Shown here piece by piece: positions 15,607-34,066 of a stretch of 40,382 nt of DNA (position 1 is the stretch's first letter; the number at the start of each line of letters is the position of its first letter). Under the pieces are notes generated by a model. That model made no database searches, had not been told where the DNA came from, and saw only the letters and a list, made by a program, of their open reading frames with translations. Origin of the DNA: a virus. The position numbers and the translations under genes were made by a program. Location: positions 1-40,382 of IMG/VR virus record IMGVR_UViG_3300025168_000203, one strand, 5' to 3'.

Positions 15607-16246
15607 ATTTGACCCATTGAGCGTACTTGATGGTGCTGAAGAGCCTGAAGAGGAGTTTTCTGTATCTAGGGCACGTGAGTCTCTTAGAGTAATTTCTGGA
15701 ATTGCGGCTTCTGGGAAAAGAGAAGATTCTTTAGATTCTCGGACGGAGCAAGGAGCTTTAGAGAATTACCAAGATGATTTAAAATCTTCTCAAGTTGCTT
15801 ATGCTCGTTATCAGGCTTGGAGGCGCGACCAAGCACTTGATATGCTTGGGCGTGTTGAAAATAAACTATTTTCTCCGGGCAGGCCTCTTTCTAATCAAGA
15901 CCTGTTAAGGCTTAGAGAATCCTTGAGTAAGGAAGTTAACGACTCTACTCAAAATATTGATCGAGTTATTGATGGGCCTCCAGTAGTTGTTGATAACAGG
16001 AGTATTAACGTTACCGTTGAGGGGGCGTCTAAAGAAGATAGAGCTTCCCGTGCGGCGATGTTAGACTTGCTTCAAGCAATTGACATAGAGCTATCTTCAA
16101 TAATTTCTACTCCAGTGGGCGAAGAAGAAAAAGAAACCCCCGTTGAACCTGCGGAACTAATTGCCCCGAACGAAGGTTCTGAGACTATTGAGGAGGGGGT
16201 TATTTTAGATGAGCGAACAGAATCAAAATCTACCAGCCCTAAGTGA
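15560..16246 (+). CDS. Acidic protein upstream of the large terminase, possible small terminase subunit
   Basis: I see no diagnostic motif. The 228-aa product is acidic and helical, with a central helical segment (about 75-150) and an acidic, proline- and glutamate-rich C-terminus. Its location, overlapping the large terminase by 38 nt, is where many tailed phages encode the small terminase, but no DNA-binding HTH is evident. A scaffold or adaptor role is equally possible. ATG 15560 is preferred to GTG 15554; AGGTG lies 5 nt upstream. Confidence 0.5.
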   Translation: MSQDERKKAEEINLGEFDPLSVLDGAEEPEEEFSVSRARESLRVISGIAASGKREDSLDSRTEQGALENYQDDLKSSQVAYARYQAWRRDQALDMLGRVENKLFSPGRPLSNQDLLRLRESLSKEVNDSTQNIDRVIDGPPVVVDNRSINVTVEGASKEDRASRAAMLDLLQAIDIELSSIISTPVGEEEKETPVEPAELIAPNEGSETIEEGVILDERTESKSTSPK

Positions 16247-18302
16247 CGAGGATAACGCCCGCTTCGACGCGCTAGTTAGAGCGTTACTACAAGACCAAAA
16301 AAGAGTAGATCTTTTAGACCAGCTTAACCCTAAGGATAGAGAGTACTTATTCGGGCTACTTAAAGGTCGCTTAAGTGGGGACTTGGAGAGCCAAAGAAAT
16401 CTTGAGAAAGATGCTTGGGATTCTGTATATCTAAGGAAACCAGTAACAATAGAAGAGTTTATTGATTCTGAATTTTTTGTAGGGAAGTGGTACAGAGAAA
16501 ACCTTTACGACTGCTGGAAAGAAGACATCTGTAAAGTAATTAACTCAGGAGCAATTGAGTGGGTACTTTCTGGTGCAATTGGTATTGGTAAGACGAGCGC
16601 TGCAATGCTTGCAACTATGTACAAGCTTTACCAAGTCACCTGCATGCGAGACCCTTGTGGATTTTACGGATGTACTAATATTGTATTCGGCCTCTTCTCC
16701 GTTAGCTTAAACCTAGCGCAGGACGTTGAGGCTAACATGCTCATAACTCGATTAAAGGAGTCAGAGTACTTTCGTCAAGTAGTTGGGGTATCAGAAGACG
16801 CAATTGGTGGGAGGAGCGCCCGTGGCACAATCCTTAGATTCCCTAACAACATAAAGTTCTCTTTTGGTTCTCAAGGTAGTCACGCATTAGGTCAAGACGT
16901 TTTCTCAGCCATTGTGGATGAGATAGCATTCTCGAAGTCGGTAGGAGCTAAACAGGTAAGAGACTTGTACAACTCTGTTAAGACCCGACTTGAGTCTCGA
17001 TTTATGACAAACAAGGGGCGCGTTCCGGGCCTCCTCTGTATTGCTTCTTCGGCCAATGCTGAAGGCGACTTCTTGGATGAGCATTTAAAAAATTCAACTT
17101 TAAAAGATAAAGTTCATATATCGTCTTTTTCTTTGTACCAAGTCAAAAGTTACCCCGGTCAGCGATTTCGTGTGCTAATTGGTAATAAGTTTCACACTTC
17201 TAGGTTGCTGGATAAAGTTGAGCGTAAGGATGATGGTCGGTATAAAGTAACCCCTATCGGAGGAGACGTTCCTGAGGACGTTAGAGTCGAGGAAGTCCCC
17301 ATAGCTTGGTATGAGCGTTACAATGAGGATCTAGAGAGATCTATTAGGGACATCTCAGGTATAGCTCTTTACGCCGCATCGCCTTTCTTTGGTAATAGAG
17401 AAAGACTCCATACGTCTATTGACCCAGATCGAGACCATCCGTTTACGATAGATCAGCCAACTTTATCAATTAAAGATGATGATATGACGTTAGAGTCTAT
17501 ATTTAAAAGAGACAGCGTCTTTGAAGAGGTTGATTCTTTTAGGCATACTTATCGCCCAAAAATAAATCCGGGTTCTCCTCGTTTTATACACGCTGATTTG
17601 GCTTTAAAGCACGACTGTGTCGGACTTGTTTGCTCTCATTTATATGGATTTAAACAAGTAGAGAGACCTGACATGCAAGGCGTTCCGCAGAAAACAACGT
17701 TGCCGGTCATTTATGTTGACTTTATGGTGAAGATAAAGCCACCTAAAGGTTCTGAGATTGACTTCACAAAAATAACCAGTTTTATTTTTTATTTACAGAA
17801 ACTTGGGATGCCTATAGGCGCAGTTACTTTTGATAAGTTCCAATCTAACTACCATCAACAGATTTTTAAAAAGTCAGGTTTTGAGTCTTTTGAAATTTCT
17901 ATGGATAGGACGCCTACGGCGTATCAAACACTCAAAGCTGGGTTCATGGCAGGCTGTATTAATTACTATATGTACAGACCTCTCATGGATGAACTAACAT
18001 CGCTTCAAGTTGTTCACAGTAAAACCTCAAATAGGATGAAGATTGACCATCCACCTAACAGTGGTAAAGACGTTGCAGATGCTTTGGCCGGTAGCCACTA
18101 CGCTGTCGTCACCTCCAAGTACACAGAAAACCAACTTACTGAGAATACTATACTTGAGGCCCAGTTGAAAAAATCAAATGAGCCTGTGCCCGCAACAGAC
18201 GTTGCGTCAATAATTGGTACTGATTGGTTAATGTCGGACTACGATGAAGCTGAAAGAATAACAGGTATAATTGGTGACAAAACTGATATATCGGGTTGGT
18301 AG
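16209..18302 (+). CDS. terL: Terminase large subunit (TerL)
   Basis: This is the ATP-driven DNA packaging motor and headful or cos nuclease. The ATPase domain has Walker A GAIGIGKTS at 122-130 and a Walker B-like FSAIVDEIAF near 232-241. The RNase H-like nuclease domain shows HADLALKHDCVGLV near 460-473, a FDKFQSN segment and the terminal KDVADALAGSHY acidic motif. At 697 aa it is a long member of the family. GGAGGGGG precedes the ATG. The portal gene follows one gene later, the usual order. Confidence 0.92.
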   Translation: MSEQNQNLPALSDEDNARFDALVRALLQDQKRVDLLDQLNPKDREYLFGLLKGRLSGDLESQRNLEKDAWDSVYLRKPVTIEEFIDSEFFVGKWYRENLYDCWKEDICKVINSGAIEWVLSGAIGIGKTSAAMLATMYKLYQVTCMRDPCGFYGCTNIVFGLFSVSLNLAQDVEANMLITRLKESEYFRQVVGVSEDAIGGRSARGTILRFPNNIKFSFGSQGSHALGQDVFSAIVDEIAFSKSVGAKQVRDLYNSVKTRLESRFMTNKGRVPGLLCIASSANAEGDFLDEHLKNSTLKDKVHISSFSLYQVKSYPGQRFRVLIGNKFHTSRLLDKVERKDDGRYKVTPIGGDVPEDVRVEEVPIAWYERYNEDLERSIRDISGIALYAASPFFGNRERLHTSIDPDRDHPFTIDQPTLSIKDDDMTLESIFKRDSVFEEVDSFRHTYRPKINPGSPRFIHADLALKHDCVGLVCSHLYGFKQVERPDMQGVPQKTTLPVIYVDFMVKIKPPKGSEIDFTKITSFIFYLQKLGMPIGAVTFDKFQSNYHQQIFKKSGFESFEISMDRTPTAYQTLKAGFMAGCINYYMYRPLMDELTSLQVVHSKTSNRMKIDHPPNSGKDVADALAGSHYAVVTSKYTENQLTENTILEAQLKKSNEPVPATDVASIIGTDWLMSDYDEAERITGIIGDKTDISGW

Positions 18303-18344
18303 AGTTAATGGTTAGTGCTAAGCTACTGTTTGTGGGGTTTTTTC

Positions 18345-18641
18345 GTGACTAAGAGAGAGGTAGCTAGAAAAGCTGCGACAAATCTTGGTCTTCCACAGAA
18401 CAAGTTCGAGAAGCAGATGAACGAGTTTTTTAGGGTTGCCGCTGATGCCTTAATTGATGGTGACGAGATTTGGATGGCACCCTTCGGAAGACTATACGTG
18501 CGAAAATATGGTGGTCGTGAGGGTAAGGAGCGTTTGTGGCTTAAACCTTCGGTGGCTTTTAATAAGGTTTTAAGGGCGTCTCCTTTAGAGGCTCCTGCTT
18601 TTTACGCTGATATAATGGATTCACTTTTAAATGAGGATTGA
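18345..18641 (+). CDS. HU/IHF-like DNA-bending protein
   Basis: The 98-aa product follows the HU/IHF plan: an N-terminal helical pair (REVARKAATNLGLPQNKFEKQ), a dimerisation core with MAPFGRLYVRK, a basic beta-arm region (GGREGKERLWLKPS) and a final helix. GTG 18345 aligns with the usual HU start and removes an unlikely hydrophobic extension from the TTG at 18315. Between terminase and portal, a DNA-bending protein could help packaging initiation, as IHF does for lambda, or compact DNA. That role is inferred. Confidence 0.7.
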   Translation: MTKREVARKAATNLGLPQNKFEKQMNEFFRVAADALIDGDEIWMAPFGRLYVRKYGGREGKERLWLKPSVAFNKVLRASPLEAPAFYADIMDSLLNED

Positions 18642-18644
18642 ATA

Positions 18645-20252
18645 GTGGCAAATCGATTTCAAGATGCAATGCAAAGGCTCTTTGCTCGCCCAGAGATAAC
18701 TGAGCCGGGTGCCCCTATCGGAGACCAAGCTGCTCAGTTTTCTCCTATGGCTTCTTATTATCGTTCGAGGATGGAGTTATCTTCTACTCGTATTAAGAAG
18801 TACAAAGACTACCGAGACATGGGAGAAGATACTTTAATCTCTGGTGCGCTTGACATCTACGCTGACGAAGCTTGCCAAATGAGTCCTATCCACCACTCTT
18901 CGTGTTGGGTGAACTCCCGCAACCAAAAAGTATCAGTAGAGCTAACTCGTATGTTAGATCGAGTGGACATTGAAGATTACATATTTGGTATAGCACGTTA
19001 CTTAGCGCAATTCGGTGACAACTTTATTCGGCCATTGGCTAGCCCGGACAAAGGTGTGGTTGGAATTGAGTTCATGGAAGCAGAAGACGTTGAGCGCCTA
19101 GTCGATAAATACTCAAGGTTGACTGGTTTTAGGGTTGCTCCTTTTGGCGATAGACCATTTGCTCCATGGGACATGGTTCAATTTAGAATCATGTCGCGTA
19201 CGCAAACCGTGAGGCAAGGAGGTTCTGTTTACGGAACTTCCATGCTTGAAAATGGTAGGCGAACTTGGAGGCAGTTGACTCTTCTAGAGGATGTTTTAGT
19301 TATTTACCGGTTAGAGATAGCTGGGCGGCACAGAATTTTTTATATCGATGTGGGTGGCGTGAGCCACGATCAAGCCTTAGCACTGACCCGCCGCTACCAG
19401 AGGTACTTCGGCAAAAAGCAATATTTTAACCCCGAGTCAGGTGATTGGACTTCAAGGTTTAATCCTTTGAACTTAACGGCAGATATATTTTGGCCTATAA
19501 GGAAAGACTCAAACAGTCGCATTGATTATCTTGGCGTAGACCCTAACGTCACCGGAGTCGTTGATATTGAGTACTTCCGTGACAAACTTTTTGCTGCCCT
19601 GAAGATTCCCAAAGCTTACATAGGACTCGACGCATATTCTTCTGTAAAATACGGCCTTGCCCAGATTGATGTTACATTTGGTCGTGCGGTGAAAAGACTT
19701 CAGCGTGCTGTTATTAATGGTCTTACAAGATTATGCCAAATTCACTTGGCGCTTATTGGGATAGACCCGCTTCGGCCTGAAAATCAATTTACGTTGCAAA
19801 TGATGTCTCCGTCCACCTTAGATGAACAACAACGCATGGAGGCTATGGACCTCTCGCTTAACTTAGCTCAAAAGCTCCAAGAGATGGGTCAAATTCTTGG
19901 AGTAGAGCAAGAAGCTATGCAGTCTTATATTGTTAGGAATATTTTAGGACTAACTCCATTTGATTTAAGGCCTATCCTTGAGCCTGAAAGTGAAGTCGCA
20001 GTGGATGCAAGTTTAGCGGACTCGGTTGATACTGACTCCATCGATGACTTATTTAGCGACGAAGCTCTAACCTCTTTAGTTGAAGGCATAATAAAAGAGA
20101 AGAACATTGATCTGACTTCATTAAAAGAAGGTATGGGTATTGGTGAAGGTTCCGAGGGTGAGGGCGTCGAACCAGTCATGGGAGAAATGACAGAAGAAGA
20201 GTTTGAAAGCGTTCGTTCTTCTTTGAAGTCAGCGAAGCCTCAAAAGAAGTGA
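18645..20252 (+). CDS. Portal protein, T4 gp20-like
   Basis: The dodecameric portal forms the DNA channel at the capsid vertex. The 535-aa sequence begins with the usual flexible N-terminus and shows the DTLISGALDIYADEA helix, the VEFMEAEDVERLV-type wing region, and a YFRDKLFAALKIPKAYIGL segment typical of T4-type portals near 308-326. A glycine- and glutamate-rich tail follows. The GTG start has GAGG upstream. Terminase before it and head morphogenesis after it confirm the context. Confidence 0.88.
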   Translation: MANRFQDAMQRLFARPEITEPGAPIGDQAAQFSPMASYYRSRMELSSTRIKKYKDYRDMGEDTLISGALDIYADEACQMSPIHHSSCWVNSRNQKVSVELTRMLDRVDIEDYIFGIARYLAQFGDNFIRPLASPDKGVVGIEFMEAEDVERLVDKYSRLTGFRVAPFGDRPFAPWDMVQFRIMSRTQTVRQGGSVYGTSMLENGRRTWRQLTLLEDVLVIYRLEIAGRHRIFYIDVGGVSHDQALALTRRYQRYFGKKQYFNPESGDWTSRFNPLNLTADIFWPIRKDSNSRIDYLGVDPNVTGVVDIEYFRDKLFAALKIPKAYIGLDAYSSVKYGLAQIDVTFGRAVKRLQRAVINGLTRLCQIHLALIGIDPLRPENQFTLQMMSPSTLDEQQRMEAMDLSLNLAQKLQEMGQILGVEQEAMQSYIVRNILGLTPFDLRPILEPESEVAVDASLADSVDTDSIDDLFSDEALTSLVEGIIKEKNIDLTSLKEGMGIGEGSEGEGVEPVMGEMTEEEFESVRSSLKSAKPQKK

Positions 20253-20264
20253 TTAGGTGTTTCA

Positions 20265-21161
20265 GTGGCAAAGGGTCGTATAGATTTAGCAAGTAGGCTA
20301 TTAGAGGTATTAGACAAAGACCCTAAAGCTCTAATTGATTTAATTGAAGCCAAGCATTTAGCTAATCACGGTGGCGCACCTCACCGTGATTTATGGGTTA
20401 AAAAGCACCATATTAGATACCCGGAAAATAAAGCTGAAAAAGAAAAAAAGAATACCAAGCAATCATATTTAGCTTCAGCCGCGCTTGCTTCTTTAATTGC
20501 TTTAATTAATAAAAGATTGCTTGCTAATTTTTTTAATGCAGGGCAGATCCTTAAACGGATAAAACAAGCAGACGCTAATCAACAAGCAAAATTAAAAGCC
20601 CGCTTAAATGCTGAAGTCGCTGCCAGTAAGAAGTTTCTTACAGATGCGTATCGAAAGAGTTATCTTTACGGTCTACAGTCCACGGGTATGCCAGTTCGTT
20701 TTGGTGTAACTAAATCTTTATCTAACAAAGAAAAACTTTGGCTCGAAGACGGTTTGAAACAAGAGTTAAAGTTTTTTGATGGGTTAGTTGGTGAAGTTAA
20801 AAGTGGTCGTGATGTCGCGGCGTTGGTACCAAGAATTAAAATGTACTCCGACGCTCTTTCATCGGCGTACTCAGCGGGGCAGGTAGTGGGTACAGCTACA
20901 GACACTTTAATCCACTGGAAATTAGACCCAAATGCCAGTCATTGTCCTGACTGTATAGAGATTGCAAAAGCATCTCCGTTTACAAAAGACACTTTACCGA
21001 CTCAACCGAAAAGCGGTTGGTGCCAGTGTAAATCTAATTGTAAATGTACGTTATCTTTTGAGCCTGCTAGTAAAGAGACAGTTGATCGAGTTAAAAAAAC
21101 ATCCCTTCCCATGGGTTACTGGCGATCTCGGTTGGTGGGATTAAAACGAAATACTAGATAA
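20265..21161 (+). CDS. Minor head / head morphogenesis protein (Mu gpF or SPP1 gp7-like)
   Basis: These proteins bind the portal and take part in head assembly or DNA ejection. The 298-aa product has a helical body and, near residues 215-265, the diagnostic C-terminal pattern: a WKLDPNASHCPDC segment, then LPTQP, then a cysteine-rich WCQCKSNCKCTL stretch, as in the phage Mu F-like family. The protein lies directly after the portal gene. The additional CKC cysteines suggest metal binding. Confidence 0.75.
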   Translation: MAKGRIDLASRLLEVLDKDPKALIDLIEAKHLANHGGAPHRDLWVKKHHIRYPENKAEKEKKNTKQSYLASAALASLIALINKRLLANFFNAGQILKRIKQADANQQAKLKARLNAEVAASKKFLTDAYRKSYLYGLQSTGMPVRFGVTKSLSNKEKLWLEDGLKQELKFFDGLVGEVKSGRDVAALVPRIKMYSDALSSAYSAGQVVGTATDTLIHWKLDPNASHCPDCIEIAKASPFTKDTLPTQPKSGWCQCKSNCKCTLSFEPASKETVDRVKKTSLPMGYWRSRLVGLKRNTR

Positions 21162-21181: not shown

Positions 21182-22399
21182 ATGGTCGATTTTAATAAAA
21201 ATAAAAAATTCGCCTCGTCTGAGGGAGATATAAAAAGCAATGGAGAGGACTCATTGCCTATCCTAGCTTTAGAAGACTATGACGTACCGGAGGATGAAGA
21301 AGAGGAAGTTGAGAACACTGTAGGTGGCTCCGTACGTTACGCTTTTGTAGGTAGTGGTCAGGGTGGCGGTAGGCTGGCCGAAGCTTTTTACTCACTTGGC
21401 TATAACAAGACGATTTGTGTTAATACTTCGCCTCAAGATCTTCATGGTATTCGTGTCCCAAGTAACCAAAAAATACTTTTAGAGGCCGGGGCTGGCGGTG
21501 CTGGAAAAGACATGGTGGCGGGTGAAGATGCCGTGGTTAAAAATCAGCAGCATGTTTACAACGCCATGAAGCAGGTATTTGGTAAACATGTAGACCACTT
21601 AATAATTTGTGCTGGCGCGGGTGGTGGCAGTGGGGGCGGCAGTCTAATCCCTTTAATTATGATTGCAAAGAAGTATTTGCAGTACTGCGGCTACGTTGAA
21701 GATGTAGACTCAAGGGTTGGCGTGTTAATGACACTGCCTACTAATGGTGAGGCCACTTCAGTTAAGGTTGCTACGAACTCTTACACCCTCGCGAGCAAGG
21801 TTTCTGATCTCGCAGAAGCAAACTCTATTTCACCTTTACTTGTCTTAGATAACGACCGGACACAAAAGCTTTACGGGAACAGCAAGAAGCTTACGATGAA
21901 GAACTTCTGGCCGACCATAAATGCCAATGTAGCTACGTTGTTTGATATCTTTAATCGAGTTAGTTCAAAACACTCGGACTACACTTCGTTTGACCCTGCG
22001 GATTACCAAACTATTACTAAAGCGGGGGGTCACACAATTATGGGCGTTACAAGTATACGGCCAGAAAAGCTCAATGATGAGACTGAGGTTTTTAAGCAGT
22101 TAAAAGAATCCTTAAGCAAGACATTACTTGCTGATGGTTTTGATTTAACTACCGCAACCTGTGCCTCGGCTATCATTGTGGGCGGTAAAGACACCTTTGA
22201 GAGCGTAGAAGGTTTACCAAATATAATTGACTATGCGTTTGATATGTTGGCCACTATGACTGGTGCGGCTACTGTGCATAGAGGCGTATATGAAGATGAT
22301 CGGGCAGGCTTACGGATCTACACAATTATAAGTGGACTAAAGCGCCCAATCGCTCGTTATAGAAAGCTCGAAGCTCTTTCTATTGAGAGGTACCCTTGA
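21182..22399 (+). CDS. Tubulin/FtsZ-family GTPase encoded in the head module
   Basis: This is a polymer-forming GTPase homologue. An acidic leader (1-50) precedes the fold. The T1 loop VGSGQGGG is at 56-63, T2 NTSPQD at 81-86, T3 GAGGAGKD near 103-110, the tubulin signature GAGGGSGGGS at 145-154, T5 TLPTNGE at 184-190 and a DNDR sugar-binding region at 223-226. The T7-loop segment SFDPADYQTI (269-278) aligns with the FtsZ VDFADV catalytic loop and supplies D271 and D274. The GTPase site is therefore probably active. The gene sits among structural genes and overlaps the next gene, unlike PhuZ of nucleus-forming jumbo phages. Confidence 0.85.
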   Translation: MVDFNKNKKFASSEGDIKSNGEDSLPILALEDYDVPEDEEEEVENTVGGSVRYAFVGSGQGGGRLAEAFYSLGYNKTICVNTSPQDLHGIRVPSNQKILLEAGAGGAGKDMVAGEDAVVKNQQHVYNAMKQVFGKHVDHLIICAGAGGGSGGGSLIPLIMIAKKYLQYCGYVEDVDSRVGVLMTLPTNGEATSVKVATNSYTLASKVSDLAEANSISPLLVLDNDRTQKLYGNSKKLTMKNFWPTINANVATLFDIFNRVSSKHSDYTSFDPADYQTITKAGGHTIMGVTSIRPEKLNDETEVFKQLKESLSKTLLADGFDLTTATCASAIIVGGKDTFESVEGLPNIIDYAFDMLATMTGAATVHRGVYEDDRAGLRIYTIISGLKRPIARYRKLEALSIERYP

Positions 22400-22698
22400 C
22401 ACCAGCACAAGCAGAGAATTTCGTTAAAACTGCCCTCTCTCAGTCACGTAACATTATAGAGGTTACTGCCGTTGGATCTACCAGTGTAAGAGTTACCGTA
22501 GATTTTAGGCATAGAGATACGGCAATTCAAGAGAAGTTACATATAACTGAGGTTAGCCTAAAGAGCGCTTCAAATGGCGCATTTGGGCTATCTGTTATAC
22601 CGTACTTAGGTGTTCAGGTTGTTGAGTCTAATTTAGGCGTTCCAAAGTCTTCTCCAATGCGCGTGGTTACTGCGATAGGTTCAAACCCCCCCAACTAA
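22396..22698 (+). CDS. Small unknown protein cotranslated with the tubulin-like GTPase
   Basis: The 100-aa product looks like an alpha/beta domain (helix, then strands VTAVGSTSVRVTVDF and a beta-rich C-terminus). I do not recognise it. The TTG start overlaps the GTPase stop as TTGA, so it is probably translated by coupling and may be a partner of the filament protein. No zinc or catalytic motif is visible. Confidence 0.6.
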   Translation: MTPAQAENFVKTALSQSRNIIEVTAVGSTSVRVTVDFRHRDTAIQEKLHITEVSLKSASNGAFGLSVIPYLGVQVVESNLGVPKSSPMRVVTAIGSNPPN

Positions 22699-22699
22699 A

Positions 22700-23206
22700 A
22701 TGTCTTTCATGGATGACTTTGATAAAAGAATCCCCGACGAAAAGCGCGATCTGTATCTTAAAATGCGCGGGGTTACTTCTTCTAATGAAAATCTTTCCTT
22801 GAACAACGAGGTAGACCCTAATTTACCTAGACTAGATATAAGTTGGAAAGAGTACATAGAAGACTTAGAGGAGTTAGCAAACCGAGTAGGGCAACTTGGT
22901 GCATTTTCTTCATTGTACGGACTGTCGCCCCATGGCGTGTTCCCTGCGATGTACCTTTCTTACCAATTGAGCAAAAGGTTAATTGTTGGCGCAGAAGTTA
23001 TAATGGAGTTGAACGAGAACCCAGATTCTCTTTTAGTTGTTGATGGTACGTGTGCCTCTGGGACTGCCTTGTTGCCTTACAGGGTTAAGTCAAAAACAGC
23101 TGTTCTTTATCTAGAGCCATCAAGATTTAGAGCATGCACGCCCGAAATAGCTGTCCTAGAGGTTTCTGGTTTAGTTAAATTCCCTTATGAGAAGAAAGTG
23201 ACATAA
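22700..23206 (+). CDS. Phosphoribosyltransferase-fold protein with altered PRPP motif
   Basis: The 168-aa product follows a type I phosphoribosyltransferase layout: a helix ISWKEYIEDLEELANRV, a segment GLSPHGVFPAMYLSYQLSKR that matches the usual GG-helix, and LLVVDGTCASGTAL in place of the PRPP-binding (V/L)DD(V/I)xxTG loop. The second acidic residue of the DD pair is replaced by G, so catalysis on PRPP is doubtful. It may bind a nucleotide as a sensor. It directly follows the GTPase cluster. Confidence 0.6.
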   Translation: MSFMDDFDKRIPDEKRDLYLKMRGVTSSNENLSLNNEVDPNLPRLDISWKEYIEDLEELANRVGQLGAFSSLYGLSPHGVFPAMYLSYQLSKRLIVGAEVIMELNENPDSLLVVDGTCASGTALLPYRVKSKTAVLYLEPSRFRACTPEIAVLEVSGLVKFPYEKKVT

Positions 23207-23412: not shown

Positions 23413-24462
23413 ATGTTGGCTTTGGTTTTAGCGTTTGCTTTGTCTGTTAGCCCGGTTGGTTTAAATGAACCAATATTAGAATCTCCTAAAGTCGTTGGTG
23501 GCTATCCTTACGAATCAGACCCCCCAGAATGGTTGGTGAGGATAGACGGGGAAGTCGGCCCTTGCTCAGCTTTTTTAGTAGCGCCCTCTTGGTTAGTTAC
23601 GGCAGCGCATTGCAAAAGGGCAGCAGAGACGGCTCAAGTAGGTATCGCTTTTAGAGGCGACGGTACGCCCACCCACACCATAGTCGAGTGGCTAGAGTAC
23701 CCCGACTGGGATGATTGTTATTTTTGCAGGGCACATGATTTAGCGTTAGCTAAAATAGATCCACCAGTTTGGGGCGTGCAGCTTCTCTCTATTGCAGATG
23801 ACCCACCGATATTTGGCCCATGGGAAGGTACAGTAGGTGGGTGGGGAAATTACGAGTTTTCCATCGACAATATAGATATTGACGTTGATGCGCCGCGCTG
23901 GAAAGAAGTTAAAGAGATAGTAGAGTGTGAGCACTTTTTAGACACTACAGCGGTTTGTCTAACTCTCGAAGACGCTTCTGTATGCCACGGGGATTCAGGC
24001 TCTCCACTTTTGGGTAAAGACAATTTAGCTTATGGGATAGCATCTAGAGGTGATGGGAGATGTGGTTTAGGTTCTGTTGCTATCTATACAGACCTTACAC
24101 GAAAAGACCACAGAAATTGGATCAAATCGGTTGTCGCAGGAGGTATCATCGCCAATATGGAATGGCCAAGTGCCGAAGCTACAGGGATTGGTTTAGTTGG
24201 AGGATGGGCATTTTCTACTACAGGGGTTATCGACCCTTTAGTTTCAATGTGGGTAGATGGTGAGTACGCAATTTCTTTACCCTGCTGCTATGACAGAGGC
24301 GACGTACGTAGAGAGTTCCCAGAAGCTGATTTACTCTCTGGTTTCGCTGGCCTTTACAATTGGACAGGCCTAGCAGGTTCAGGGAAGAAGTCCGTTACTT
24401 TTATAGTTCAAGATTCCAATGGTAATGAACTACGGCTTGATCGAGAAGTGGAAGTGGACTAA
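23413..24462 (+). CDS. Secreted trypsin-like (S1 family) serine protease
   Basis: The 349-aa product has a hydrophobic N-terminal signal peptide, a VVGG zymogen-type junction at 27-30 and the full catalytic triad: H66 in TAAHC, D109 in HDLALAKI and S195 in CHGDSGS. The residue at the S1-pocket position is serine (S189), which suggests chymotrypsin-like rather than trypsin-like specificity. A further domain of about 100 aa follows the protease (from about 252), perhaps Ig-like. S1 proteases are rare in phages. Here it is the last plus-strand gene of the structural block, with a GGGGG ribosome-binding site. It might act on the host envelope or on virion proteins. Confidence 0.85.
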   Translation: MLALVLAFALSVSPVGLNEPILESPKVVGGYPYESDPPEWLVRIDGEVGPCSAFLVAPSWLVTAAHCKRAAETAQVGIAFRGDGTPTHTIVEWLEYPDWDDCYFCRAHDLALAKIDPPVWGVQLLSIADDPPIFGPWEGTVGGWGNYEFSIDNIDIDVDAPRWKEVKEIVECEHFLDTTAVCLTLEDASVCHGDSGSPLLGKDNLAYGIASRGDGRCGLGSVAIYTDLTRKDHRNWIKSVVAGGIIANMEWPSAEATGIGLVGGWAFSTTGVIDPLVSMWVDGEYAISLPCCYDRGDVRREFPEADLLSGFAGLYNWTGLAGSGKKSVTFIVQDSNGNELRLDREVEVD

Positions 24463-26270: not shown

Positions 26271-26307
26271 TTGTGTTTAAAGAGTGTTGGCGGTCGGGAG
26301 AACTGCC
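26254..26307 (+). promoter_or_regulatory. Promoter plus 5' stem-loop leader, copy B
   Basis: TTGCAA (26254-26259), 18 bp, TAAAGA (26278-26283), beginning inside the end of the upstream gene. Arms GGCGGT and ACTGCC (26289-26294, 26302-26307; one G-T pair) enclose loop CGGGAGA. An AAAGGTTGAGAG ribosome-binding region then leads to the ATG of the AAA+ gene at 26324. Confidence 0.6.
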
Positions 26308-26323
26308 GGAAAGGTTGAGAGAA

Positions 26324-27826
26324 ATGAATATTGTTGAGAGAGTGAAGGGTGCACGTCGAGTTAGCACTCCTATTATAGCGATTCGCACCCCCGACCCTGC
26401 GTCAACTATGCAGGGTATTTCGGTTGGGGTGAACGGCGGGAGTCCTAAAGTTCGATGGGATGCTGCCTCTGGATTCAGTGCGGTTAACGAAGAAGGCTTG
26501 GCGGTTTTGGAGAACGCCCTAGATGGCGCGGAACCTTCCACGGTCTCTTCTCCAGCCGATGCTCTTGCCTACGCTAAGGCATTCCCTAATAAGACAGTCT
26601 TCTTTGCGATCAATCTGCACCGTTATTTCCAAAGCGGGGGCGGGAATGATAGCTTAGCTGCCCTCGTCACTCAGGCCATCTGGAATCTCCGAGATGAGTT
26701 CAAATCGAATCAGCGCACCTTGATTATCTTGTGCCCTGACTGCGACCTACCGGCTGAGATCGTGCAGGACGTAATGGTTCTGGACGAGGAGTTGCCGAGT
26801 GAAGAAGCATTGCGTGGCATCATTCTCGAACTTCATGAAGCCGCAGAACTCGACGCCCCAGACGCTGACACTGAGGCTCGTGCGGTCGATGCTCTTCGTG
26901 GTCTCGCGGCATTCGCAGCGGAGCAAGCTGCTGCCCAGTCGCTAACGAAGGACGGGCTGGATCTGGACATTCTCTGGGAACGTAAACGTAGACTCGTTGA
27001 GCAGACTCCGGGTGTCTCCGTTTATGGTGGCCCTGACTCCTTTGACTCCATTGGTGGTTGCGAAGCAGTCAAAGAGTTTTTGAACAATTTGATCGCTGGT
27101 AAGCGTCCTCCGAAGGCCGTAGTATTTATCGATGAGATTGAGAAAGGTCTTTCTGGGGCCACGAATGGTACCGGAGACTCTTCTGGCGTATCTCAGGCTC
27201 TCCACGGGGGACTATTGGGTTTTATGGAAGACAAGAAGGCTCGCGGCGTTATCTTTGTTGGCCCTCCGGGGGCGGCTAAGTCTGCTGTAGCTAAGGCTTT
27301 GGGTAATGAGGCTAAGGTTCCTACCGTTCAGCTTGACCTGAGTGGACTGAAAGGCTCTCTAGTTGGTCAGAGTGAGCAGAACCTACGCTCTGCGCTCAAG
27401 GTAATCGAAGCAGTTGGCGAGGAGGACGTGTTCTTCGTTGCTACGTGCAACCGTGAAGCCGATCTCTCCCCTGAGATCAAACGACGATTCTCTTACGGTA
27501 CGTGGTTTTTCGACCTTCCCAACAAGGAAGAGCGAGAGAAGATTTGGCCTATCCATAAGAAGGCGTACGGAATCGAAGACAAGAAGGTTCCTCTCGATGA
27601 GGAGCTTACCGGAGCGGAGATTCGTAACGCCTGCGACCTCGCGTACTCGCTGGATATCCCTCTGAAGGCTGCTGTTGGTTATCTTGTCCCCGTAGCGGTA
27701 TCTGGGGCTTCTCAGATCGAGGCTCTTCGGAAGCAGGCCACCGGTAGGTTCCTTTCCGCTTCGGTTAAGGGTGTTTATCGACCGAGTATTAACAAGAGCG
27801 CTAAACGCCGCTCTGTGGAGGTGTGA
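26324..27826 (+). CDS. Ycf46-like AAA+ ATPase with Walker B preceding Walker A
   Basis: Residue numbers count from ATG 26324 (500 aa). The N-terminal part (about 75-175) has a Ycf46-like pattern: TVFFAINLHRYF, IWNLRDEF, TLIILCPDCDLPAEI, VMVLDEELPSEEAL. The AAA+ module then shows FDSIGG (240-245), Walker B AVVFIDE (265-271), Walker A GPPGAAKS (313-320), sensor-1 ATCN (373-376) and RRF (387-389). Walker B normally follows Walker A; here the block is moved in front, a circular-permutation-like arrangement. Downstream genes resemble the DUF1257 and DUF2997 proteins that accompany Ycf46 in cyanobacteria. A motor or remodelling role is likely; the substrate is unknown. Confidence 0.82.
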   Translation: MNIVERVKGARRVSTPIIAIRTPDPASTMQGISVGVNGGSPKVRWDAASGFSAVNEEGLAVLENALDGAEPSTVSSPADALAYAKAFPNKTVFFAINLHRYFQSGGGNDSLAALVTQAIWNLRDEFKSNQRTLIILCPDCDLPAEIVQDVMVLDEELPSEEALRGIILELHEAAELDAPDADTEARAVDALRGLAAFAAEQAAAQSLTKDGLDLDILWERKRRLVEQTPGVSVYGGPDSFDSIGGCEAVKEFLNNLIAGKRPPKAVVFIDEIEKGLSGATNGTGDSSGVSQALHGGLLGFMEDKKARGVIFVGPPGAAKSAVAKALGNEAKVPTVQLDLSGLKGSLVGQSEQNLRSALKVIEAVGEEDVFFVATCNREADLSPEIKRRFSYGTWFFDLPNKEEREKIWPIHKKAYGIEDKKVPLDEELTGAEIRNACDLAYSLDIPLKAAVGYLVPVAVSGASQIEALRKQATGRFLSASVKGVYRPSINKSAKRRSVEV

Positions 27827-29369: not shown

Positions 29370-30320
29370 GTGGAAGATCTACAAGAGCAGAAAGCGGAAG
29401 TTGAAAAACTTTTGACTCCGGGGTCCAAGGTTGGTGAGATAACGCTTGCCGAAAAAACGGTCGTCCTTAGCGTTCGCACTTCTATTGTCGGGATGCAGCG
29501 TAAAGTTTCTACCGACGAAATCGAGGCTCAAGCCGACAAGGAAAGCCTTAACGTTCAAAAGATTCTTATGAAGAGCAAAAGCCTTGATAAGCTGAAAAGT
29601 ATTAGAGGCTTGGTTAATCGAGAGGTCGGTCGCATCGCAGTCCCGGTTTCTCACTTCCGGCGAGGTACCTACCTTCTTCCCGTACAGTTGGTGGAACTCA
29701 TGGAGAAGCGTCTTAACAAGATGTCTTTGGATTGGGACCGCAATGTTGGCGAGTTCATGGCTGAGTATCCGCAAGTTATTGATGAGGCTCGTGACCGCTT
29801 GGATGGTCTTTTCAACTCTGACGACTATGCTTCAGTTGAGGCGTTGCGAAACAACTTTCGTTTTGAGTGGAACTATTCGGTCGCGCAGACTCCGCAGTCT
29901 CTTCAAGGTATATCTAAGAGTCTTTTTGAGCGGGAACAGTCTCGTGCTGCACAGCAATGGCAATCGGCAGAACGCGAGATTCGAGTTGCTTTGCGTGAAG
30001 GCTTCTCTGGATTGGTCGAGCACTTTGTAGAAAGACTTACGCCTGACGAAGACGGTAAGAAGAAGGTTTTCCGATCTTCTTTTGTTGAAGGTTTTCGAGA
30101 TTTCTTGGAGACCTTCGATGGGAGAAATCTCACTGATGATAAAAGCCTCAACGAGTTGGTAGAGAAGGCCAAGAAAGTTATGGCTGGTGTGGATGTTGAT
30201 TCTCTTAGAAAAGACGACAACATTCGGGATAGAGTCCTTGGTTCTTTTGAAAACTTGAAAGATTCGACTGCTGAACTCGTTGTGAAAAAATCTCGTGCTA
30301 TTTCTTTTGACGAAGATTGA
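29370..30320 (+). CDS. DUF3150-like helical protein in the AAA+ cassette
   Basis: The 316-aa product is helical. The segment from about 95 to 175 (YLLPVQLVELMEKRL, then EFMAEYPQVIDEARDRLDGLF and NSDDYASVEALRNNFRFEW) matches the pattern of DUF3150-like proteins found beside MoxR-type or phage AAA+ ATPases. GTG 29370 is chosen; a TTG two bases upstream is out of frame. It has its own promoter and stem-loop leader (copy D), so it can be expressed apart from the ATPase. It may be the ATPase's partner, an inference from location. Confidence 0.55.
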   Translation: MEDLQEQKAEVEKLLTPGSKVGEITLAEKTVVLSVRTSIVGMQRKVSTDEIEAQADKESLNVQKILMKSKSLDKLKSIRGLVNREVGRIAVPVSHFRRGTYLLPVQLVELMEKRLNKMSLDWDRNVGEFMAEYPQVIDEARDRLDGLFNSDDYASVEALRNNFRFEWNYSVAQTPQSLQGISKSLFEREQSRAAQQWQSAEREIRVALREGFSGLVEHFVERLTPDEDGKKKVFRSSFVEGFRDFLETFDGRNLTDDKSLNELVEKAKKVMAGVDVDSLRKDDNIRDRVLGSFENLKDSTAELVVKKSRAISFDED

Positions 30321-30344
30321 TTTAAAACTTATCTGGGAGACAAG

Positions 30345-30638
30345 ATGCAATTTTATAATAAAAACACAAACCACACCGTAACTGCCGAAATGCCATGGCT
30401 CTGGGCGTTTCTTTTCGGGGCTTTTTATTTCATGTTCCACGGAGTTTGGACCCATGTAGCCATTTACGCTGGAGCGGTTGTTATCACAGGTGGGATGGCC
30501 GCACCCTTCCTCTGGATTGGCTATTCCATTGCCGCAAAGTCAGTGATCGAAAGCCACTATCTTTCTAAGGGTTACAAGGTGGTTACTAATCTAACGCCAT
30601 CGGAAGTTGATGAAAGTGCCAGTAGCTCAGTTGGATAG
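30345..30638 (+). CDS. Small membrane protein (two TM segments), DUF2628-like pattern
   Basis: The 97-aa product has two hydrophobic helices (LWAFLFGAFYFMFHG and VAIYAGAVVITGGMAAPFLWIGY) separated by a short polar turn. The FLFG-x-F-Y-x-x-x-x-G pattern resembles DUF2628-like inner-membrane proteins. Its 3' end runs 23 nt into the tRNA-Arg gene, so its last residues and stop codon are encoded by tRNA sequence. It might alter the host envelope. Confidence 0.6.
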   Translation: MQFYNKNTNHTVTAEMPWLWAFLFGAFYFMFHGVWTHVAIYAGAVVITGGMAAPFLWIGYSIAAKSVIESHYLSKGYKVVTNLTPSEVDESASSSVG

Positions 30639-30689
30639 AGCAATGGCCTCCTAAGCCATAGGTCGCAGGTTCAATCCCTGTCTGGCACA
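30616..30689 (+). tRNA. tRNA-Arg (anticodon CCU)
   Basis: The cloverleaf is complete: acceptor GTGCCAG pairs CTGGCAC, anticodon stem ATGGC/GCCAT holds loop CTCCTAA with anticodon CCT, and the T-loop reads GGTTCAATCC. No 3' CCA is encoded (ACTT follows). A rare-arginine-codon (AGG) tRNA is typical of large phages. The 5' end overlaps the preceding CDS. Confidence 0.93.
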
Positions 30690-30692
30690 CTT

Positions 30693-30766
30693 GGACCCTT
30701 AGCTCAGTTGGTTAGAGCAACCCGCTCATAACGGGTCGGTCGAAGGTTCAAGTCCTTCAGGGTCCA
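30693..30766 (+). tRNA. tRNA with CAU anticodon (elongator Met or tRNA-Ile2)
   Basis: Acceptor GGACCCT pairs AGGGTCC; anticodon stem ACCCG/CGGGT surrounds CTCATAA with anticodon CAT; the T-loop is GGTTCAAGTCC. It lies 3 nt after tRNA-Arg. Whether it is elongator tRNA-Met or tRNA-Ile whose C34 becomes lysidine cannot be decided from the bases alone, though the variable region and T-arm look Ile2-like. Confidence 0.9.
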
Positions 30767-30770
30767 TAGA

Positions 30771-31104
30771 ACGCCCCGCTTGGCTAGCGGGTAGTGAGGT
30801 TAAATGGTTCCTCATGAAGAAGGGTGATAGCTCACTTGAAAAAAACCTGCTGACCCCGCTAGGGGTCGGTCGGTAGGCCCGTAAGTCGGTAAGGTGGAGC
30901 AGGAGAAGATGTCCGTGACTGAGGTGTAGGTAAACCTATATCCGTTCGCCGGTATTGGATGCATGGAAGCTGAGCCGACACTACCTTTTCTTTTGGGAGG
31001 AGAAAATGGTTGACGAATGGGCAGCGCGGGCCTCAGTCGGGTGAGTGGGTTGCCACGCTCAGGTCTTGGCGACGGGATCATGTGAAGGGGCCAGAGGATG
31101 CCCC
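30771..31104 (+). ncRNA. Candidate structured RNA between the tRNAs and a small gene
   Basis: This stretch of about 370 nt without a long ORF is dense with helices. CCCGCT/AGCGGG (30775-30791), TGAGG/CCTCA (30795-30814), GTGA/TCAC (30824-30835), GACCCC/GGGGTC with a GCTA loop (30852-30867), CCTGCT/AGCAGG (30846-30851 with 30898-30903), TGTAGG/CCTATA (30925-30940) and GGGGC/GCCCC (31087-31104) all pair; the GACCCC hairpin is nested inside the CCTGCT helix. I do not recognise an RNA family. The placement right after tRNAs resembles where phages carry large structured RNAs (for example GOLLD or ROOL), but the length and sequence are not identified. Confidence 0.4.
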
Positions 31105-31134
31105 GTTTGTTCCAAGTACAAGGAGGTTAAGGAA

Positions 31135-31311
31135 ATGAAGAGAGTAACGATCCAGATATCTGACTGCCCTTATAAGTATGTACAGACTGGTTTCCACCAC
31201 AAAGTCTACGATAAAGATGGTAAAGAGATTAATTTCTTAGACCGTGAGTCTGCCATCAATTGGATGGATTCATGGAGGGAGCTTTTCGGTGTCAGCGGCA
31301 AAAAGGGCTAA
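31135..31311 (+). CDS. Small unknown protein
   Basis: A 58-aa ORF starts MKRVTIQISDCPYKYVQTGFH and follows a strong AAGGAGGT ribosome-binding site. It looks like an alpha/beta mini-domain (strands, then the helix AINWMDSWRELFG). Function unknown. It overlaps the next ORF. Confidence 0.6.
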   Translation: MKRVTIQISDCPYKYVQTGFHHKVYDKDGKEINFLDRESAINWMDSWRELFGVSGKKG

Positions 31312-31603
31312 TTCTCGTAAAGGTCGTTTGAAGCGAGCCTCTCGCGAGCAGGTTTGGGACTTTGTTCGCTGTGAGAGGGTTGCTCGTGTTTCTATTTATA
31401 GTGGCAATGAGCGCAATAGGTCGCTATGTTTTGGAGGCCATATTAAAAATAAACCTCGAAGAAAGCTAGAAAGGTTTCTTAATGCTTGTGCTCGAAACCT
31501 GCTTTGGGGTTCTTTGTCTGTACAGGAAAAGTTAAGGTCTCTTGATTTGAGATATGGCGATTCGGTTAAAGAAAGGTCTAAACTAAATGGACGCTCCTGC
31601 TGA
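31289..31603 (+). CDS. Small basic protein, unknown
   Basis: The 104-aa product from GTG 31289 is strongly basic (KRANSRKGRLKRASREQ at the start) and continues with WDFVRCERVARVSIYSG and a helical tail. The charge suggests nucleic-acid binding. It overlaps both neighbours (by 23 and 17 nt), consistent with compact phage coding. No family is recognised; coding status is moderately certain. Confidence 0.45.
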   Translation: MSAAKRANSRKGRLKRASREQVWDFVRCERVARVSIYSGNERNRSLCFGGHIKNKPRRKLERFLNACARNLLWGSLSVQEKLRSLDLRYGDSVKERSKLNGRSC

Positions 31604-31865
31604 GAAAGAAATTAAAGAGATATGTTCACTGGTGGAGTCAACGCTGCTTGAAAAGAATAAAAAGTACGGCAATTCAGCTTTGCAGCCACTAAATTGTTTT
31701 GCTCGCACAACAAACGCTCTTGATCAGCTTTATGTTCAGATAGACCACAAGTTAGCTAGAATTGCGCGAGGTGACGTGAATCGAGAGGACGAAGATGTTC
31801 TTCTCGATCTTGTCGGGTATTTGGTTTTAGCTATGATCGCTCGAAGGAGTAAAGATGCCACGTGA
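31587..31865 (+). CDS. DUF1599-like protein (nucleotide-modification-associated domain)
   Basis: The 92-aa product has LEKNKKYGNSALQPL followed by LDQLYVQIDHKLARIARGD and EDEDVLLDLVGYLVLAMI. This is the pattern of DUF1599 (nucleotide-modification-associated domain 1) proteins, which sit near nucleotide or DNA modification genes in phages. The conserved YG, H/K-A-R-I and D-L-V-G-Y residues are present. A role in nucleotide metabolism is inferred from the family name and is not demonstrated. Confidence 0.65.
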   Translation: MDAPAEKEIKEICSLVESTLLEKNKKYGNSALQPLNCFARTTNALDQLYVQIDHKLARIARGDVNREDEDVLLDLVGYLVLAMIARRSKDAT

Positions 31866-32430
31866 CCCAAACAAGTATGTTGTCGATTCTTACCGTTATG
31901 TTTCCGTCACAGAAGTTTTAAGCTTCTCTGGGTGGGCGCGTTACGACAAGGTTGATCCGGTAGTTCTGAGTCGGGCAGCGGAGCGTGGGAGCTTGGTTCA
32001 CGATGCTACCGAAGAAGTTGATGACGGCACCTTTAATGTGAACGAGTTTAGAGAAGACTTAATCCCATACATTGATGGTTACGAAAAGTTTATGCGAGAA
32101 CACGAGTATGAAGTTCTTGAGTCTGAGATTGTAGTTTTCAATCACAAGTATAAGTACGCAGGCCAGCTAGATAGGATATGCATGCTCGACGGGAAGAAAA
32201 CTCTTCTCGACATTAAGACATCGGCGCAGCGTAAACCTGAATGGGGTTTACAACTGGCAGGCTACGAGATGGCTTACGGTGAAGAGCTAGAGCGTCGAGT
32301 CGCACTTCGAGTAGGTTTGGGATTTTACGAGATAGACAACTATAACAACGACAACGATTACCCGCTGTTTTTAGAGGCTGTTAAAATTGTCAACGATCAG
32401 AGAAACGCAGGAGTTATAGAAATCAAGTAA
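31855..32430 (+). CDS. PD-(D/E)XK nuclease superfamily protein
   Basis: The 191-aa product carries a RecB/Cas4-type layout: AAERGSLVHDATEEV near 40-54, an E-containing strand VLESEIVVF near 82-90, then YAGQLDRICMLDGKKTLLDIKTS with the active-site D and K of the DxK motif near 103-123, and a final WGLQLAGYEMAY helix. It is short, like other stand-alone phage exonucleases. It could process DNA ends; a substrate is not visible. It overlaps the DUF1599-like gene by 11 nt. Confidence 0.75.
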   Translation: MPRDPNKYVVDSYRYVSVTEVLSFSGWARYDKVDPVVLSRAAERGSLVHDATEEVDDGTFNVNEFREDLIPYIDGYEKFMREHEYEVLESEIVVFNHKYKYAGQLDRICMLDGKKTLLDIKTSAQRKPEWGLQLAGYEMAYGEELERRVALRVGLGFYEIDNYNNDNDYPLFLEAVKIVNDQRNAGVIEIK

Positions 32431-32440
32431 TCATCAAACC

Positions 32441-32492
32441 TTGCGGACAGCATCTTCATGTGCTTATATACAAACAGGCCATGGAGAGGGTC
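32441..32492 (+). promoter_or_regulatory. Promoter plus weak 5' stem-loop leader, copy H
   Basis: TTGCGG (32441-32446), 17 bp, TTATAT (32464-32469) or TATATA one base later. A short stem GGCC/GGTC (32477-32480, 32489-32492) encloses an ATGGAGAG loop. AAAGGTAAAGAG then leads to ATG 32507. The stem is only 4 bp, so this is a weaker member of the family. Confidence 0.5.
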
Positions 32493-32506
32493 AGAAAGGT
32501 AAAGAG

Positions 32507-32677
32507 ATGAAATTACTTATTATTGCGATTGCGGTGTTTTTTGCAGGTAATGCAAATGCCCATCATGAAGGTTTGATTTCAACAATTCCGTCGTTGAGCA
32601 TGTCCGCTTATTGGGTTTATGCTTGCATTGCTTGTGTATCTTGGACTGCCCTTAGTTACCTTAAAAAGAACCTTTAA
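32507..32677 (+). CDS. Small membrane or secreted protein
   Basis: The 56-aa product starts with a hydrophobic signal-like stretch (MKLLIIAIAVFFAGNANAHH) with an ANA-H cleavage-like site, then a second hydrophobic segment (YWVYACIACVSWTALSYL) and a KKNL end. It could be a two-pass inner-membrane peptide or a processed peptide. Function unknown. AAAGGTAAAGAG precedes the ATG. Confidence 0.55.
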   Translation: MKLLIIAIAVFFAGNANAHHEGLISTIPSLSMSAYWVYACIACVSWTALSYLKKNL

Positions 32678-32695
32678 GGTTTGCAAAATAAAGGG

Positions 32696-32751
32696 TTGAT
32701 TTTATTTAACAGTATTGCTAAACATAAATCATCGAAGGCATGGGAGCCTTC
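32696..32751 (+). promoter_or_regulatory. Promoter plus 5' stem-loop leader, copy E
   Basis: TTGATT (32696-32701), 17 bp, TAAACA (32719-32724). Arms GAAGGC and GCCTTC (32734-32739, 32746-32751) enclose loop ATGGGA. AGAAAGGTTGAGAAA follows before ATG 32768. Confidence 0.7.
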
Positions 32752-32767
32752 AAGAAAGGTTGAGAAA

Positions 32768-33229
32768 ATGGATAAAAAGATTGTAGAAAGTGCAGCAGCA
32801 GCAGCGGCTAAAGTTCTTTACGCCGAGTTGGTCTCCTGCGGAGAAGAGAAAACTTTCCGAGCGCGTTTAGACTTCGAGGTCGATATGAAACGCGGTGAAT
32901 CTTTCGTCAAGACGAATCCTCAGAAAGCTCGACCTTGGAGCCTTGTTCAAGTTTTGATCAGTAAGTTGAACGCTACGGTCGGTGAGTCTGTAGTGGAGTC
33001 TTGGCTTGAAGAAGGCATTAAAGAAGCTCAACTTTTGAATAGTGTTGAAGAGGCTTCAACGAAGAAGCGCATTAGCTCCGCTATAGAGAAAATTTTACCT
33101 GAGATTCAAGAAGAGCGTAAAGGTAATATCTATATTACTAAGAAGGCTGGCAGAGTTGTCGAAATTCCAGAAGGTTCTGACAAAGACCTCTTGAATAAGA
33201 TTGATTTCCCAGTTAGTCTCGTTAGCTGA
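32768..33229 (+). CDS. Unknown protein
   Basis: The 153-aa product has a helical N-terminus with an alanine run (ESAAAAAAKVLYAEL), an alpha/beta core, and a C-terminal strand segment NIYITKKAGRVVEIP. No family is recognised. It has its own promoter and stem-loop leader, suggesting independent, probably early expression. Confidence 0.65.
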   Translation: MDKKIVESAAAAAAKVLYAELVSCGEEKTFRARLDFEVDMKRGESFVKTNPQKARPWSLVQVLISKLNATVGESVVESWLEEGIKEAQLLNSVEEASTKKRISSAIEKILPEIQEERKGNIYITKKAGRVVEIPEGSDKDLLNKIDFPVSLVS

Positions 33230-33247
33230 GATCCAATAAGGCCAGCG

Positions 33248-33415
33248 ATGCTATACCTTCGTATTGCTTCTCCAAACGGAGATAGGCTTTCGTATCGTAT
33301 TGACGTGTTCTCTCACGTTACCTCTCCGATTCGTTTGTCCGAGGCCCAGACAGGGGTGCGGGGATTGTCGTTCTCTCCCAATCGAGCGACAGTTCCCGCC
33401 CCGTGTTGTTTTTAA
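33248..33415 (+). CDS. Possible small ORF (55 aa) overlapping a large hairpin
   Basis: An ORF starts at ATG 33248 (AAGG upstream) and ends at TAA 33413-33415, giving MLYLRIASPNGDRLSYRIDV and onward with a plausible beta-strand pattern. It also contains the hairpin at 33353-33402, so it may be only a leader or terminator region. It is the only plausible coding content in the 33230-33427 gap. Confidence 0.35.
   Translation: MLYLRIASPNGDRLSYRIDVFSHVTSPIRLSEAQTGVRGLSFSPNRATVPAPCCF
33353..33413 (+). terminator. Long hairpin with T-rich tail, candidate terminator or structured leader
   Basis: GGGG (33353-33356) and CGGG (33359-33362) pair with CCCG and CCCC (33395-33402). An inner stem TGTCG/CGACA (33366-33370, 33387-33391) stacks inside. 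TGTTGTTTTT follows. This fits an intrinsic terminator, or a structured leader for the gene at 33428, whose AAGGAGAG ribosome-binding site starts 5 nt after the T-rich tail. Confidence 0.4.
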
Positions 33416-33427
33416 GAAGGAGAGAAA

Positions 33428-34066
33428 ATGTCAAAAAAAAAGCTAAGTAAAAAATCTATTAGCGTTGCTCTTGGCACATCGCCTAAGTTTTTGTTGTTGA
33501 CTACAAGGGATGTCTCAGGTGAGCAAAACATAGTAAAACTTCAGCCAGACGTAGACTCAGTTTTAAGCCAAGAAATAGATCTTTATGGCCTGACGTTTAT
33601 GCAGACGCTTGATGGTTTTGAAATAGGTTATGAGTCGAACGGTTTTATTTCTTCGGAAGCCTTGCATCGTAAGCTACGAGCACTAATTTGGTTAGAGAGA
33701 AAGTTTAATATTTTGTGTGAGCGGGTGGGAGACCCGTTGAATTTTGGTTCATCAGTTGCGTACTGTGCAGCAGTGTTAGGTGTAGAGGAGATAGTTATTT
33801 CTGGGGATGCCTATCCGATTAGGGAAGCAGTGCGACATTTTTCGGGAGGGGTTTTAAATGGCGAATTATTCTCAGATGGAGGAGAGATTCCTTCAAAAAA
33901 TATCGAAAGAAGAGAAGTCGGGTTGTTGGGTATGGAAGGGGTCAAAGAGGTGGTCGGAGAGGAAGACCGGACCATCGGGGTTGATGTTCAACCCGCTGAT
34001 TCAGAGGCTGGAGGATGCCCATCGGATATCTTGGAAGTTATTTCGGAGTCCGAAGAAGATAGATAA
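33428..34066 (+). CDS. Unknown protein with a 3' end overrun by an endonuclease gene
   Basis: The 212-aa product begins MSKKKLSKKSISVALGTSPKF. Its N-terminal 140 aa look like a real domain (beta strands with FMQTLDGFEIGYESNG and a helix LHRKLRALIWLERKF). From about residue 143 the same DNA encodes the HNH endonuclease in another frame, and the tail here is low-information and acidic. The natural C-terminus was probably displaced by insertion of that gene. Function unknown. Confidence 0.55.
   Translation: MSKKKLSKKSISVALGTSPKFLLLTTRDVSGEQNIVKLQPDVDSVLSQEIDLYGLTFMQTLDGFEIGYESNGFISSEALHRKLRALIWLERKFNILCERVGDPLNFGSSVAYCAAVLGVEEIVISGDAYPIREAVRHFSGGVLNGELFSDGGEIPSKNIERREVGLLGMEGVKEVVGEEDRTIGVDVQPADSEAGGCPSDILEVISESEEDR

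Follow-up and report, generated by a model that had tools for sequence, protein, structure and literature searches.

A gene for a tubulin-like protein lies among the packaging and head genes of an uncultured phage, and its position raises the question of what a cytoskeletal GTPase does there. The locus belongs to the IMG/VR virus record IMGVR_UViG_3300025168_000203, of which positions 1 to 40,382 (40,382 nucleotides) were analyzed and are referred to below as the window. To our knowledge, work on phage tubulins has dealt almost exclusively with PhuZ of nucleus-forming phages and with the partition protein TubZ.

The gene (21182-22399, plus strand) begins with ATG and encodes 405 amino acids, identified by sequence and fold matches as a TubZ-like GTPase of the tubulin/FtsZ superfamily. 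In the T1 GTP-binding loop, GSGQGGG (residues 57-63; 21350-21370, plus strand), G57, G59 and G61-63 are invariant in 52 of 52 aligned sequences. The T4 tubulin signature loop, GAGGGSGGGS (residues 145-154; 21614-21643, plus strand), has invariant G148, G149 and G151. The family alignment places the T7 catalytic loop at SFDPADY (residues 269-275; 21986-22006, plus strand), with D271 and D274; in the 52-sequence alignment, D271 occurs in 52/52 and position 274 is D or E in 52/52. The original prediction held these loops to be intact: T1 and T4 are as it described, and the T7 pair is D271 and D274, conserved in relatives. The coding sequence is under strong purifying selection, with pN 0.04 against pS 0.78 in comparison with the sister contig L002.

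The protein's Pfam matches, to Tubulin (E 1e-6) and to TubZ-like_C (E 5e-4), fall a little short of the gathering cut-offs; a relative with about 50% identity to it, L082, lies above both. A sequence search of the PDB returned TubZ/RepX (4ei7, E 4e-16) and then FtsZ, and the score against the NCBIfam FtsZ model TIGR00065, 34.5 bits, is below the equivalog cut-off of 295.2. The AlphaFold2 model, built from the 52-sequence alignment, reached pLDDT 87.8 and pTM 0.86, the N-terminal tail (residues 1-32) being the sole part with pLDDT below 50. Foldseek ranked TubZ first among solved structures (E 5e-23, TM 0.70-0.77), followed by CetZ and FtsZ; among viral models, an uncultured-phage 'FtsZ' was first (E 4e-32) and PhuZ came far lower (E 2e-11, TM about 0.5). 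Pfam, the PDB search, the model and Foldseek thus bear out the superfamily originally proposed, and the structural comparison then suggested gives a confident tubulin fold, with TubZ first and PhuZ remote. The two-domain tubulin fold, in the predicted model, and the glycine-rich GTP-binding loops, in the alignment, are both present. Judged by sequence and predicted fold, the product is a real tubulin-like GTPase nearest to TubZ, and it probably forms a GTP-driven filament.

Membership of the FtsZ superfamily also brings to mind a protein that co-polymerizes with or poisons host FtsZ and so blocks division during infection, a block generally known as a common phage strategy. This is decidedly improbable here: the catalytic loop is intact, the protein is closer to TubZ than to FtsZ, and its gene sits with virion genes and not in a region for early host takeover.

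Relatives were collected from IMG/VR with one T1-loop DNA pattern, which gave at least 120 loci; a profile search confirmed 119 of the 120 pattern loci listed, so the family comprises at least 119 IMG/VR loci. Among the matches listed, these form at least 53 clusters at 80% identity, with a median identity to L002 of 33%. The sister contigs of the window are L002 (94%) and L003 (88%). The tree contains two main groups, one with the window and L082 and the other with most of the capsid-linked and PhoH-linked members. When TubZ, PhuZ, phage G and FtsZ were included, a single clade for the family was allowed (p-AU 0.66), in a tree where long branches make the placement of PhuZ unreliable. All members are metagenomic, on fragment contigs of up to 281 kb, and by these sequence searches the family is known here from uncultured phages only. 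In INPHARED, tblastn with four members found no close relative among isolated phages, and a fifth query, L128, gave weak partial matches of about 25-31% identity, some to bacterial FtsZ. Bacillales plasmids carry TubZ at about 25% identity to the family. A scan of bacterial genomes gave no match, a result of little weight as both patterns came from poorly chosen segments.

The best viral structural match, A0A6J5RW92, is annotated 'FtsZ Cell division GTPase' from an uncultured Caudovirales phage (BFVD/UniProt; E 4e-32, 25% identity); it is a likely family member, described by annotation only. Gp138 of Bacillus phage G, a putative FtsZ-like protein, has a tubulin GTPase domain and weakly matches family members (E 0.001 to 0.02); it is encoded among nucleotide-metabolism genes, not head genes, and the tree places it apart from the family. 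No description of the family appeared in the portions of the literature searched; Sun et al. 2025 (BMC Genomics), on phuZ-encoding phages, lies outside that scope, and part of the family may be reported there.

The genes around the tubulin gene are, on the plus strand, those of a virion block. A probable terminase large subunit of 697 amino acids (16209-18302; phrog_2, E 4.5e-4) comes first, then an HU/IHF-like DNA-binding protein (18315-18641; Pfam Bac_DNA_binding, E 7e-6), whose gene sits between those of the probable terminase and the portal. The portal protein is of the T4 Gp20 type (18645-20252; Pfam Portal_T4, E 1e-48). A putative head protein of 298 amino acids follows (20265-21161), called MuF-like by motif. 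The earlier 'Mu F-like' label is only partly sustained: a Cys-rich C-terminal motif can be recognized by eye, but the protein matches only phrog_24776, of unknown function (E 1e-16), and no Pfam model. A MuF search across 21 contigs, run without a positive control, gave no match. The window yielded no major capsid protein of the Gp23 type, and among the neighbour families profiled the portal was the sole one shared by the window's phage. Promoter-like sites were not commoner than in shuffled sequences.

Downstream, the start of a 100-aa ORF (22396-22698, plus strand) overlaps the tubulin stop codon (TTGA). It was the next gene, a possible and weakly matched phosphoribosyltransferase-like gene (168 amino acids; 22700-23206, plus strand; NCBIfam E 0.0024 over residues 45-100), that had been taken for the coupled neighbour; the coupled gene is in fact the 100-aa ORF. 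Other genes lie further along. Immediately after the tubulin gene group comes a gene (23413-24462) for a trypsin-like serine protease (Pfam Trypsin, E 1e-19), unusual cargo for a phage; its N-terminus apparently carries a signal segment. An AAA ATPase (26273-27826) has a relative in Tunturiibacter phage Tunturi_3 (36% over 95%), and with a nearby DUF3150 protein (29370-30320) it forms a pair resembling MoxR-type modules.

The nearest sequence and fold being those of plasmid TubZ proteins, a TubZRC-like partition filament might be expected, segregating or centring the phage genome in a plasmid-like or pseudolysogenic state. The TubZ of phage c-st is a published precedent (cited within PMC7824862), and the third gene upstream of the tubulin gene encodes an HU-like DNA-binding protein. 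TubZ of Bacillus plasmids (TubZRC; PDB 2xka, 4ei7) is also the best solved structural match, alike in its GTPase core and its T7 catalytic pair, and the window protein weakly matches a TubZ-like C-terminal domain. The identity, however, is about 20%, and neither a TubR-like partner nor iterons were found at the window: no repeat cluster resembling a tubC-type iteron centromere occurs near the tubulin gene. The 100-aa ORF was considered as TubR and dropped, its model being alpha-beta rather than winged helix (moderate confidence, from a three-sequence alignment), and a structure search with that model gave no significant match. The gene, moreover, lies in a virion block and not in a replication or maintenance module. 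Partition is accordingly unlikely, and the DNA-positioning role of this kind suggested earlier finds neither an iteron cluster nor a winged-helix partner near the gene.

The association with virion genes extends well beyond the window. Among the matches listed, 56 of 103 full-length members have the tubulin gene in a packaging, head or neck block, in at least five different positions. The commonest order (28 full-length members among the matches listed) is tubulin, secreted protein, two small genes, terminase, portal and prohead protease; in 21 members among those listed, it is scaffold, Gp23 capsid, tubulin, head-tail adaptor, two genes and tail sheath. The order portal, MuF-like gene, tubulin is that of the window, L002 and L003. 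The tubulin gene lies between portal and protease in L168 and L136, and just before scaffold and capsid in L091. L167 has terminase, portal and tubulin in common with the window's phage in a different order, and because it carries the tubulin gene upstream of its 698-aa terminase and its portal, the place of the gene within the block varies. In one contig, G023 (the contig of L095), two tandem Gp23-type major capsid genes were also observed (30193-33532).

Proximity was evaluated in contigs of at least 50 kb with both portal and Gp23. The tubulin gene was within 5 kb of the portal-capsid block in 9 of these 12 contigs, against 2.7 expected (P about 5e-5); this P ignores phylogeny and is only a guide, since G007 and G013 come from a single lineage, as do G010 and G029. 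In G007/G013 and in G008, about 75 kb separate the gene from the head block. Another 18 of the 103 full-length members (among the matches listed) have a PrkA kinase or PhoH gene beside the tubulin gene, so the linkage is recurrent, not universal; 29 of 103, many with short flanks, have no recognized neighbours among the matches listed. On the tree, these contexts interchange at least 10 times. The PrkA-type serine kinase gene itself is clear in L166 (80-2005; Pfam E 2.5e-137) and occurs also in L105, L116, L121, L133, L142 and L179; it forms a conserved cassette with the tubulin gene, PhoH and a small HTH gene similar to sigma region 4.

A gene so placed could encode a structural or internal virion protein, a tubulin fold either incorporated into the head or packaged inside it. 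The window's own gene follows those of the portal and the MuF-like protein, and in about 21 members (among the matches listed) tubulin lies between capsid and neck genes. Yet the whole GTPase site is conserved, which is unexpected for a passive virion component, and the position of the gene changes from phage to phage. Furthermore, at 79 portal loci found with the window's portal as query, tubulin occurred in the flanks of L003 and L004 only, both of the seed clade; as only seed-clade loci had it in the flanks examined, tubulin is best regarded as an accessory gene that recurs in the head block. A virion component is therefore very unlikely.

The N-terminal tail offers a further distinguishing feature. 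It precedes the first strand and is long and acidic, with a median net charge of -11 in 45 residues. Residues 1-20 are variable, while a motif is kept: DDFDFxxxYDDxP..LPEN in one group and (I/L)PxLxLEDYxxP in the group that includes the window. Of 60 tails, 45 contain a triplet of the acid-aromatic-acid type, whereas shuffled sequences lead one to expect 19. In the window protein, the alignment places the conserved acidic/aromatic motif at residues 24-41 (21251-21304, plus strand), SLPILALEDYDVPEDEEE, a candidate docking peptide. The interaction tails of TubZ, PhuZ and FtsZ sit at the C-terminus. In contrast to TubZ, the window's family has its acidic tail at the N-terminus, the window protein's C-terminus is short, and the genes occur in phage head blocks. 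The N-terminal tail may be read as a docking peptide whose partner among the phage proteins is putative.

The other well-known phage tubulin, PhuZ of the phiKZ-like Chimalliviridae, positions the phage nucleus. PhuZ filaments carry and move capsids (PMC13282480). A comparable positioning of a replication compartment could be imagined for the present family, which is also phage-encoded and found in large-genome phages (contigs to 281 kb). PhuZ, however, is only a remote structural match, and its C-terminal Pfam domain, TubZ_C_2, is absent from the window protein. The family's phages have a T4-type portal and capsid, and chimallin was not matched by protein or family search in any of 18 large contigs of relatives (0/18, phiKZ serving as positive control), a search of fragments that lay outside the window's 40-kb record and could miss divergent shells. 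A PhuZ-like compartment role is thus quite unlikely. The N-terminal tail, the lack of a TubR or iteron signal and the lack of a chimallin match in the 18 large contigs would set the family apart from TubZRC systems and from PhuZ and nucleus-forming phages. Comparison with phiKZ also tempers the original contrast between a head-block tubulin and known phage tubulins: the location does recur across divergent phages, but the contrast was drawn too strongly, as the phiKZ PhuZ gene (gp39) is only a few genes from the virion structural genes gp28-gp35. Since that gene, too, has virion genes nearby, closeness by itself is no peculiarity of this family.

Because the linkage recurs, a function at heads or in packaging has the most support, the evidence from gene order being indirect. 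In a tailed phage whose portal is of the T4 type, the protein could form TubZ-type GTP-driven filaments that act on capsids or on packaging; our confidence in this tentative reading falls a little short of even. Monomers would polymerize head to tail, so that each subunit's T7 Asp pair completes the GTPase site of its neighbour, and the resulting filaments would treadmill or grow and shrink. More speculatively, the acidic/aromatic N-terminal tail might dock on a phage head or packaging protein, and docked filaments might collect, place or transport proheads or filled heads in late infection. Such a role resembles the capsid-transport half of the work of PhuZ in phiKZ-like phages, but with no chimallin-type nucleus protein detected in the large contigs searched. 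A possible, rather doubtful extension is a capsid-dedicated assembly line, separate from the phage nucleus, in which TubZ-type filaments of T4-like, non-nucleus phages would use the N-terminal tail to dock on a head or packaging protein and would move proheads, or cluster them, to be filled with DNA.

The recurrent placement in head blocks suggests a phage-made filament for capsid assembly or movement outside the 'phage nucleus' system. If the link of this large family with the capsid and packaging genes of T4-like phages holds, cytoskeletal virion assembly would not be confined to nucleus-forming jumbo phages, and the spatial organization of late phage assembly would become testable with one small, defined protein.
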